DNA from: Halobellus captivus
Lineage (GTDB): Archaea; Halobacteriota; Halobacteria; Halobacteriales; Haloferacaceae
NCBI RefSeq assembly: GCF_003697845.1
Contig: NZ_RDQE01000002.1
Location: forward strand, 248,001 to 312,000
Reading direction: 5' to 3'
DNA: 64,000 bases
A program made the position numbers and the translations under genes. A model generated the notes under the pieces. That model was not told where the DNA came from. It made no database searches and saw nothing but the letters and a program-made list of their open reading frames with translations. Positions within the stretch are counted from its first letter, which is position 1. Every line of letters begins with the position of its first letter. Below, piece by piece: positions 54,145-56,926 of this stretch.

Positions 54145-54387
54145 GGAGCCGTTTTCGACGACGTCCCCCAAAAGCCTGCGTACTGCGGCCGCGGGCGGGT
54201 CGGCAACCGCGAGCCCTCGAGGACGCCCGGACCGTGCCGTCGGGGTGGTATCGTTCCGTCGGTGACGTCCGGCGTATCGAGTCGAACCGGGGCTGTGAGG
54301 CGTTATTCCACTTCACCTATCGATGATTTTCCACGTGATTCGCCGAAAAAACTTAGTGTCTTGATACGAATGTGGCAACCGTTAGCT
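54145..54387. promoter_or_regulatory. Intergenic region with promoter of the DUF2589-like operon
   Basis: Most of the 243 nt is featureless GC-rich sequence, but the last 80 nt are AT-rich, with GAAAAAACTTAGTG at 54345-54358, a TATA-like stretch about 30-43 nt before the ATG at 54388. No other gene is seen. Confidence 0.5.
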
Positions 54388-55008
54388 ATGCCCAATCCAG
54401 ACTTCGCGGCCGAACTGGGGAACATCCCGTACGAGGAGGTGATCGGAACGCCGTTGCGAGCCGCCGTGGAGGCGAACGCGAAGGCCTCGATGACGGCGGC
54501 GGAGTTCATCAAGTCGGTCGGGTTCACCGATCCGACGGTCGGCGATCCGGAGCCGGTGACGGTCGACTTCGGATACCAGAAGCGAACCGTCGACGAGAAC
54601 GGCAACGAGATCACCGAAAATCGCTCGCTTTCGGTCCCGTTGCTGCTGCTCCTGAACATCCCGTACTTCGAGGTCAGCAACGTGACCATCGACTTCAACG
54701 TCAAGCTGAACTCGGTGGAGTCGTTCGAGCAGTCGAGCGAGTTCGAGTTCGGCTACCAACGGGAGACGGAGGCGAGCGCGAACCTCGGGTTCCTCCAGGG
54801 AAAGACCAAGTCCGAGGTCAACGTGAGCTACAAGCGCTCGACGTCCCGCGGACAGGAGGTCGAGCGGACCTACGACCAGACCGTTCACGTGGAGGCGGAG
54901 TCGGTCGAGCCGCCGGAAGGGGTCAACCGGCTGATGGGCGCGCTCGAACAGACCATCGCGGACGACTCCTCGAACGGGAACGGCAACGGCAACGGAAACG
55001 GGAACTGA
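54388..55008 (+). CDS. DUF2589-like protein A
   Basis: 206 aa, no signal or TM. The N-terminus is helical (YEEVIGTPLRAAVEANAKASMTAAEFIKSVGF); a beta-rich body follows with PVTVDFGYQKR, NRSLSVPLLLLLNIPYFEVSNVTIDFNVKL and SEFEFGYQRE, TKSEVNVSYKRS. It ends in an (NG)5-N tail. The body has the same order of segments as protein B. Family name DUF2589 from memory; the biochemical role of that family is unknown. It is the first gene of a four-gene operon. Confidence 0.75.
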   Translation: MPNPDFAAELGNIPYEEVIGTPLRAAVEANAKASMTAAEFIKSVGFTDPTVGDPEPVTVDFGYQKRTVDENGNEITENRSLSVPLLLLLNIPYFEVSNVTIDFNVKLNSVESFEQSSEFEFGYQRETEASANLGFLQGKTKSEVNVSYKRSTSRGQEVERTYDQTVHVEAESVEPPEGVNRLMGALEQTIADDSSNGNGNGNGNGN

Positions 55009-55017
55009 CGAGGAACA

Positions 55018-55662
55018 GTGAACGGAACCGATACCCTCGCGGACCTCCCGCTGTCGTCGCTGTTCTCCGGGCCGCTCGTCGCGGCCGTCGAGGCCAGCAT
55101 CCAGGCGCAGTCCGAGTCGCTCTCGCTGATCCGGGAGGTCGCGTTCGACGACGGCGAGCTGGTGACGGTCTCCTTCGAGTACCGGAAGGCCGAGGTCGAC
55201 CCCGACACGGGCGAGGAGCGGCAGGTCACCAGACATCTCACGGTGCCGATCCTGTTGTTTCTCTCCGTGCCCGAACTCGTCGTCCACGAGATCGAACAGG
55301 AGTTCTCCGCGAAGATCGTCGACACCGAGACGGAGGAGGGCGAGGAGGACTCGGAGTCGACGGGCGGATCGGGACTGTCGACGCTCGCGCCGAGCCGCCT
55401 CCGGGTGTCGCCGGCGTCGGAGGAGACCACCTTCTCCCGGAAGACCAAGGCGAAGTTCGACCTCGACGTTCGGATGGTCGCCGAGATCGAGAGCCGGTCG
55501 ACCGGGATGGAGATGCTCGAGCGGACGGCGAACGGCGCGATCCGCGAGGCGCGTGGCCCGGCGAACCGGCGCGAGGCCGTGAAGGGTCGTGAGGCCGTGT
55601 CGCGTGAAGACGTGTCAACCCTCGACGAGACGGCACGCGTCGACGAGAGCTCACGAGAATGA
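55018..55662 (+). CDS. DUF2589-like protein B
   Basis: 214 aa with a GTG start 9 nt after gene A. Paralogue of A: LSSLFSGPLVAAVEASIQAQ corresponds to A's IGTPLRAAVEANAKAS, and LVTVSFEYRKAEVD...RHLTVPILLFLSVPELVVHEIEQEFSAKI corresponds to A's strand-turn-strand body. It then has an acidic Glu-rich insert, and a second beta segment (KTKAKFDLDVRMVAEIES) and a helical tail. Its TGA overlaps the ATG of gene C (ATGA), so the two are translationally coupled. Confidence 0.75.
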   Translation: MNGTDTLADLPLSSLFSGPLVAAVEASIQAQSESLSLIREVAFDDGELVTVSFEYRKAEVDPDTGEERQVTRHLTVPILLFLSVPELVVHEIEQEFSAKIVDTETEEGEEDSESTGGSGLSTLAPSRLRVSPASEETTFSRKTKAKFDLDVRMVAEIESRSTGMEMLERTANGAIREARGPANRREAVKGREAVSREDVSTLDETARVDESSRE

Positions 55663-56531
55663 CGACGCTCGACAGCTACCTCGCGGCGGTGTACGACGCG
55701 GCCGCGGAGGCCGAGACGCTCGCGTTGATCAACGGCCAGCGGCGACTCCTCCGGATGATCCGTGCGGGGCGGCTCCCCGAGGACGCCAGTGTCCCGGTCT
55801 ACCACGCGGCCGACCTCTCCGTGACGCTCGATCTCGGACTCGAGGCACGCGAGACCGAGGACGGAACGGAGCTCGTGGTCACCGAATCCGAACCGGGCGA
55901 CGACACCGTGATCGACGTCGACCTCGAGGTGTACGACATGCTGGAGGCCGGCGACCTTCCCGAGTCGGACTCGAAGCGCCGAGGAAGGGAGGCGATCGAC
56001 GTCCACTTCCCGATCCAGAAGCCCTCGTCCCCCGAGGACGACGAGCCGGACGACGATCCCGAATCGTCGTCACCTCCCACACGCGGTGACGAACCGCCCG
56101 AACGGGAGGGGGGTCGACGGAGTGAGGAGGAAGCGGAGCGGGAGGAGAGGCGGAAGAGGAAACGGGAGAAGGAACGACAGGAGAAACGGGAGAAGGAACG
56201 ACAGGAGAAACGGGAGGAGGAGCGGAAGAGGAAACGACGAGAATCGAGGGATGAGACCGGATCTCGAGCGGAGGACGAGACTCCGGGCTCCGAAGCCGAC
56301 GACCCGGACGGTCGGGACGACGCCCGTGCGGCCGACGACGGCCCGTCCTCGACCCGCCCCCCGGCGAAGGAGGAGGGTTTCCTGCCGTTCGACCCCGACG
56401 TGTTCTCGGGGTTGGACCTCCTCCGATCGACCGGGGTGGGAACGGGTCCCGACCACGGTGACGAGGGCGATCCCGAACCGGGCGACGATCACGAGAACGA
56501 CGACACCGAGACCCACGGAAACGATGACTGA
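55659..56531 (+). CDS. DUF2589-related protein C with highly charged linker
   Basis: 290 aa. The N-terminal 110 residues resemble A/B in shape (AAVYDAAAEAETLALINGQRRLLRMIRAG, VYHAADLSVTLDLGLEARE). Then comes an acidic region and a very long basic/acidic alternating helix (about 150-195) with KREKERQE twice, encoded by an exact 24-bp tandem repeat at 56160-56207. An acidic linker and a hydrophobic C-terminal patch (EEGFLPFDPDVFSGLDLLRS) follow. Possibly a linker between a membrane or surface and the A/B assembly. Confidence 0.7.
   Translation: MTTLDSYLAAVYDAAAEAETLALINGQRRLLRMIRAGRLPEDASVPVYHAADLSVTLDLGLEARETEDGTELVVTESEPGDDTVIDVDLEVYDMLEAGDLPESDSKRRGREAIDVHFPIQKPSSPEDDEPDDDPESSSPPTRGDEPPEREGGRRSEEEAEREERRKRKREKERQEKREKERQEKREEERKRKRRESRDETGSRAEDETPGSEADDPDGRDDARAADDGPSSTRPPAKEEGFLPFDPDVFSGLDLLRSTGVGTGPDHGDEGDPEPGDDHENDDTETHGNDD
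56160..56207 (+). repeat. 24-bp tandem repeat inside gene C
   Basis: Two perfect copies of a 24-bp unit (AAACGGGAGAAGG...ACAGGAG) encode KREKERQE twice in the charged helix. Slippage-generated and in frame. Confidence 0.92.
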
Positions 56532-56856
56532 GAACGACCCACCGCTCGACGAGTACTTCGATCCGCTACGCACCGACCACCGAACGTCGCTCCGGAAGCG
56601 CATGGAGCGCTACCGGGACCAGCTCGAGGAACAGGGCTACGAGGTAACGGTCGCCGAGGGAACGGAGGGGTTGTTCGCCGGCGTGCTCGTCATCGACGAG
56701 GCGAACGGCCGTTTCGGGTTCCTCGAGGAGGACGGCAGCGTCTCGTGGATCGACGGCAGCGGCGCCATCGGCGCGATCGGCTCCGCCGTCGCCCAGAACC
56801 ACAGCGACACGCTCGAACGACGGACCGAGGGGCTCGAGAACGTCGACGTCGAGTGA
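56524..56856 (+). CDS. Small protein D of the DUF2589-like operon
   Basis: 110 aa. The ATG overlaps gene C's end by 8 nt (ATGACTGA). N-terminal helix (LRKRMERYRDQLEEQGYEV) precedes beta strands (VTVAEGTEGLFAGVLVIDEANGRFGFLEEDGSVSWIDGSGAIGAIGSAV). The hydrophobic Gly-rich C-terminal piece could sit against a membrane or in an assembly. No family recognised. Confidence 0.6.
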   Translation: MTENDPPLDEYFDPLRTDHRTSLRKRMERYRDQLEEQGYEVTVAEGTEGLFAGVLVIDEANGRFGFLEEDGSVSWIDGSGAIGAIGSAVAQNHSDTLERRTEGLENVDVE

Positions 56857-56926
56857 CCGCCGGAGGCGGACCGACGGATCCGCCGGTCCCCGGAAGCGGC
56901 GGCGACAGCGGGGATACCGGCGACGC

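Follow-up and report, generated by a model that had tools for sequence, protein, structure and literature searches.

The stretch of DNA analysed here (the window, 64,000 nucleotides of the Halobellus captivus genome) carries a run of four genes, A to D, that are all read in the same direction (Table 1). A gap of 9 nt separates A from B, B and C share an ATGA, and the overlap of C with D measures 8 nt. These coordinates and joins reproduce the preliminary description of the locus, and the Asn-Gly repeat at the end of A, the Gly-rich end of D as well as the Lys/Arg/Glu run and the hydrophobic C-terminal patch of C that it had listed were likewise found. A TATA-like element precedes gene A, and an A/T-rich element occurs at a similar distance before A in the 13 upstream regions listed; we infer that it may act as the promoter.

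Table 1. Features of the four-gene cassette (positions in the window)
Feature	Positions	Strand	Description
Whole insertion	54145..56926	.	between 2-hydroxyacid dehydrogenase and cystathionine gamma-synthase-like genes
TATA-like element AAAAAACTTAGTG	54346..54358	+	about 30-42 nt upstream of the start codon of A; putative promoter element
Gene A	54388..55008	+	ATG start, 206 aa, DUF2589 protein, PF11655 match
Gene B	55018..55662	+	GTG start, 214 aa, second DUF2589 paralogue, PF11655 match
Gene C	55659..56531	+	290 aa, cryptic DUF2589-like N-domain (by profile comparison), then variable tail
C N-domain, residues 1-108	55659..55982	+	helix, then short beta region; kept in 13/13 haloarchaeal carriers
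C Lys/Arg/Glu-rich stretch	56121..56255	+	probable single alpha-helix; 39/40 residues K/R/E/Q
C C-terminal hydrophobic patch GFLPFDPDVFSGLDLLRSTGVG	56376..56441	+	short-motif candidate
Gene D	56524..56856	+	110 aa, small beta region, Gly-rich end at 56755-56799

Membership of the DUF2589 family (PF11655) was defined by a score above the curated gathering cut-off of 23 bits. In the Pfam search both A (E 1.7e-26, 93.8 bits) and B (E 2.8e-14, 54.2 bits) exceeded this value and are therefore paralogues, as had been supposed from similar motifs in the two proteins. The genome contains exactly two DUF2589 genes, namely this pair. The family is catalogued without an assigned function. In a phylogenetic tree B formed a clade apart from A, within which the haloarchaeal B sequences were monophyletic (support 100/100), while A sequences of bacteria and archaea were intermixed. 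For haloarchaea the groupings in the A and B portions of the tree were largely the same, as one would expect from co-inheritance.

Conservation in the A family is highest at positions occupied mostly by Gly, Pro, Ala or aliphatic residues, and the cassette proteins contain no cysteines and few histidines, which argues against an enzyme. Hydrophobic stretches resembling that of a membrane control were absent from A, C and D of the window; in B such a stretch reached a value of 1.72 compared with 2.19 for the control. Any assembly of these proteins would probably be located in the cytoplasm.

Conservation at occupied and empty sites

DUF2589 genes were found in 8 of the 148 genomes of the family to which the window belongs and in 25 of 393 genomes of the phylum. 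All haloarchaeal carriers from this family and from family f4 possess the tandem pair. Over the 13 haloarchaeal cassettes that we collected, the order A-B-C-D and the start codons ATG/GTG/ATG/ATG were invariant (13/13 each, including the GTG of B), with spacings of 4-22, -8 to +1 and -8 to +4 nt. A gene-neighbourhood comparison of this kind had been set beforehand as the refuting test for a functional unit; it returned homologues in the same order in other genomes with both C and D conserved (13/13). Pairwise omega values were 0.09-0.22 for A, 0.28-0.37 for B, 0.12-0.25 for the N-domain of C, 0.22-0.51 for its tail and 0.09-0.36 for D. Judged by these ratios, purifying selection acts on each of the four genes.

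Within the genus, A is carried by 9 of 52 genomes. Eight of these carriers have the cassette inserted between two housekeeping genes, one for a 2-hydroxyacid dehydrogenase and one for a cystathionine gamma-synthase-like protein, and the ninth (L202) has it at another place. The distance between the two flanking genes amounts to about 2.8 kb in the window. Of the 24 loci examined in non-carriers, 22 have the same two genes side by side, with 91-291 bp between the tblastn ends; at the other two (L181, L184) the dehydrogenase was not matched in the stretch searched. From the comparison of occupied and empty sites it follows that the four genes were gained or lost as one block. One genus member (G100, locus L183) has an in-frame TGA in its cystathionine gamma-synthase-like gene.

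Related cassettes in bacteria and other archaea

A scan of genome contigs using A alone as query returned zero relatives. An alignment-based scan provided 80 named loci, which were mostly bacterial and otherwise came from methanogens, ANME archaea, Bathyarchaeia and Archaeoglobus. When these were combined with the loci taken from whole genomes, four architectures could be distinguished: A-C-E (74 loci), A-B-C (12), A-C-B (5) and the haloarchaeal A-B-C-D (13). A-C-E loci occur in bacteria, methanogens and Bathyarchaeia (e.g. L083, L101, L114), and the 12 A-B-C loci are those of Archaeoglobaceae, including one with a split B (L060). The second gene of the A-C-E cassettes, which we refer to as C-type, encodes mostly 225-270 aa and is absent from Pfam. 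The third gene, E, encodes about 190 aa that look all-helical as judged from the sequence.

The succession of a DUF2589 gene and a co-directional C-type gene was also found at the 13 haloarchaeal loci, there with B in between; E as third gene was not found in haloarchaea. An E profile gave no match in the whole genomes of four haloarchaea and two Archaeoglobaceae, and three further genomes of the phylum, all with the A-C pair, did contain E. Since E was absent where B was present (six genomes tested), B and E look like alternative third subunits. A and the C-type protein look like a core to which a swappable third subunit is added: E in bacteria and methanogens, B in Archaeoglobaceae and some bacteria, and B together with D in haloarchaea. 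Clustering of the neighbouring genes at about 90 loci yielded no consistent fourth partner. Clusters of ABC-transporter and P-type ATPase neighbours were considered as partners and rejected, as they represented large families or close relatives.

Several loci showed individual peculiarities. In four bacterial loci (L145, L136, L142, L149) the A genes encode 279-311 aa and carry an insertion that separates the N-terminal helix region from the conserved VPxL strand; some of these insertions contain GxGYTSxPxVxIxG-type repeats that resemble a decorated surface loop. The Vibrio plasmids L073 and L075 carry an unannotated DUF2589 frame directly after the annotated DUF2589 gene and each have a nearby gene annotated with TcdA/TcdB-type domains. 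The E protein of Bacteroides pyogenes (L101:9449-10072) gave a sub-threshold match to an Sf6 terminase small subunit-like family (2.2e-5, 24.9 of the 27 bits required).

Genes C and D

Neither C nor D matched a family in the Pfam and NCBIfam searches. As C lacks a PF11655 match, we term it DUF2589-like rather than a member of the family. Its N-domain, previously described as shape-like, instead appears to be a divergent domain of the DUF2589-like superfamily: Compared by hhalign with the C-type profile of the A-C-E cassettes it gave 88-90% at E values of 1.6e-6 to 3.2e-6, with residue 1 aligned on residue 1, while 30 reversed or column-shuffled controls reached at most 2.4% and E values no better than 0.019. 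The C-type profile in turn aligned with A-type DUF2589 (83%, 9e-6), and an iterated HMM search started from the C-type second gene recruited A-type DUF2589 proteins. When haloarchaeal C was compared directly by hhalign, neither A nor the Archaeoglobaceae C profile gave a signal, such that the kinship of C is deduced through the second gene of bacteria and methanogens as an intermediate. The profile comparison supports homology of the C N-domain to this second gene. At least three subunits would then descend from one family, A and B firmly and C by profile comparison.

The remainder of C is variable. Patches similar to GFLPFDPDVFSGLDLLRSTGVG occur at the same place in L045, L047-L049 and L200. 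In L050-L053 two helix-hairpin-helix-like segments replace the Lys/Arg/Glu stretch; the segment in L052 matches HHH_5 at 3.8e-11, and L050, L051 and L053 contain similar ones. No helix-hairpin-helix domain was found in C of the window. A conserved head combined with a fast-evolving tail fits a tether. The earlier view of C as a charged tether needs to be modified, as the charged tail is one of several interchangeable ones. In one genus member (L046:6404-7267, minus strand) an ambiguous base in the C tail is followed by an Arg-rich frame unlike that of its relatives, which suggests a sequencing or assembly error or a frameshift in the repeat-rich tail.

Strong matches to D were confined to the eight genomes (of 148 in the family) that carry DUF2589, and hhalign gave no signal between D and A, B, C or E. 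D likewise has no PF11655 match and is probably an accessory protein of haloarchaea only. Other haloarchaea gave weaker D-like hits (E 1.6e-4 to 8e-4), which were rejected as transcription regulators, three of them IclR-like and one of another helix-turn-helix type. Only the last of these, a haloarchaeal regulator at L165:3167-4028, is similar to D: its terminal hairpin (GLVVAEDETTATAGLMVMDEANGARAFIETDAGPAVSWV) and the core of D share 48% identity across some 44 residues (E 8e-4). Such a regulator hairpin is a possible origin of D; as the resemblance is confined to a hairpin of about 44 residues in a helix-turn-helix protein, we do not claim homology.

Structure models and interpretation

We obtained AlphaFold2 models for A of the window (from 51 sequences, excluding the haloarchaeal relatives taken from whole genomes) and for the C-type protein of L083. 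The model of A (mean pLDDT 75) comprises a 31-residue N-terminal helix (residues 15-45), two shorter strands (58-68 and 74-84), a very long hairpin (94-125 and 142-172), a C-terminal helix (177-187) and the Asn-Gly tail. Residues 113-154 had pLDDT values below 50, and the distal hairpin may either lack a fixed structure or require a partner. The model of the C-type protein (pLDDT 92.7) begins with an N-terminal helix of 32 residues, followed by a strand, a helical bundle and a small beta region. A fold search of both models against the PDB gave no match at E <= 0.001, and a sequence search of the PDB found no relative.

The long hairpin raises the question of whether A, and also B, act on membranes, with hairpins from several subunits forming a beta-barrel or a membrane-attacking ring under the control of C, D or E. 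Hydrophobic and polar residues alternate strictly over residues 101-107, 119-129, 140-148 and 162-170 of A, the hairpin tip carries a conserved aromatic residue in the wider family (W at position 135 in 41 of 49), and the A model has weak PDB matches, none of them significant, that include beta-barrel pore formers and ring proteins. We nevertheless consider a membrane ring unlikely. The best PDB match of any kind had an E value of 0.13, with TM-scores below 0.2 by query length, and the tip lies in the region below pLDDT 50. Furthermore, the tip is partly polar in A of the window (R125, Q137 and S142; the residues in most others are L, W or P, and L), and an ordinary beta-sandwich would fit the alternation as well.

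A patchily inherited module directed against viruses or other mobile elements would be consistent with the sparse distribution in the genus (9/52), with the gain and loss as a block and with the intermixing of bacterial and archaeal A sequences. Matches to PADLOC models were, however, at chance level only (best E 0.0018 for a short stretch of the L083 E protein; A, B and D gave none), the roughly 90 loci showed no consistent association with defence or mobile genes, and nuclease, NTPase and sensor domains were not found. In addition, eight of the nine genus carriers hold the cassette at one chromosomal site rather than in a variable island, and the Archaeoglobus genes are induced by a carbon source (PMC3949148), such that we regard a role in conflict or defence as quite doubtful.

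Domestication of virus or phage structural genes is highly improbable and largely refuted: The A hairpin is weakly similar to phage collar proteins and a few contigs of viral collections encode relatives (L076, L077), but no PHROG family was matched, the only relative from the viral-contig scans adjoins an integrase in what looks like a host flank, and no virion gene recurs beside the 74 A-C-E cassettes in genome contigs. Phage records yielded one unverified faecal fragment of 4 kb. An accidental cluster of unrelated small genes, for which the missing functional partner gene and the lack of detectable D relatives outside haloarchaea might be quoted, is refuted with practical certainty by the clean insertion seen between occupied and empty sites, the conserved order (13/13) and the purifying selection on all four genes.

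With no consistent fourth gene and no PADLOC or PHROG match, a self-contained structural assembly is the most economical reading. We tentatively favour the view that ABCD is an operon complete in itself and encodes a hetero-oligomeric scaffold that is cytoplasmic and non-enzymatic; the argument for a scaffold is drawn partly from absent catalytic signatures. With similar reserve, DUF2589 cassettes in general might represent an unrecognised class of hetero-oligomeric intracellular machines in bacteria and archaea, having A and the C-type protein as invariant core together with an exchangeable third subunit and C tether; the haloarchaeal ABCD would be its four-subunit version.

A hetero-oligomer of A and B would be plausible. 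In the scaffold that we propose, A, B and C would assemble via their conserved N-terminal helices and beta edges, and the A hairpin could be the main contact or a display arm. C would serve as the tether, with its head held in the assembly and its exchangeable tail (a Lys/Arg/Glu helix here, tandem helix-hairpin-helix elsewhere) and C-terminal motif reaching for cargo or the nucleoid. D might act as a haloarchaeal accessory or cap. Around the core pair of A and C-type, B, E or B plus D would be the alternative third subunits.

The cassette spans Proteobacteria, Bacteroidota, Chloroflexi, Spirochaetes, methanogens, ANME archaea, Bathyarchaeia, Archaeoglobi and haloarchaea. Related subunits, the A/C-type core and the clean gain and loss turn genes of "unknown function" into one defined and testable system, and the natural empty-site relatives of the haloarchaeal carriers allow a direct knockout or knock-in design. 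In the open-access literature searched, DUF2589 was found in one passing mention alone (PMC3949148), and searches by sequence, fold and literature placed the cassette in no known kind of system.

Among known proteins, beta-barrel pore-forming ring proteins offer a lead for the mode of action only. They share the long amphipathic beta-hairpin; the cassette differs in that it has neither a significant fold match nor an evident secretion signal and that the tip is partly polar in haloarchaea. Another related case is a locus that we take to be that of Archaeoglobus fulgidus (L060) and that presumably corresponds to AF0414-AF0417. Its genes are A, a B that is broken into two frames, and a C-type gene, in total four reading frames, and it differs from the haloarchaeal cassette by the lack of D and by a short C-type protein (about 145 aa) without long tail. 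The two short frames of B (L060:7588-7979, minus strand) are unlike the other Archaeoglobaceae loci seen and reflect either real decay or an old sequencing error. AF0414-AF0417 have been described as a DUF2589-related run that is up-regulated specifically during growth on lactate (PMC3949148).

The A-C-E cassettes resemble the haloarchaeal one in being stand-alone and co-directional and in having A placed before a C-type gene, the product of which can be aligned at its N-terminus to haloarchaeal C. They differ in their third gene, E, which has no match to D, and in the bacterial C-type proteins, where a helical bundle and a C-terminal beta sheet take the place of the Lys/Arg/Glu or helix-hairpin-helix tail. 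With the DUF2589 family as catalogued (PF11655), A and B share the helix and the VP..LLxxxPIPxxxVxxxxIDF pattern, while the haloarchaeal cassette combines two members with a cryptic third, C, that is missed by Pfam. What is new is thus the system: C as a cryptic relative, the core of A and C-type, the alternative third subunits and the gain and loss as a block.
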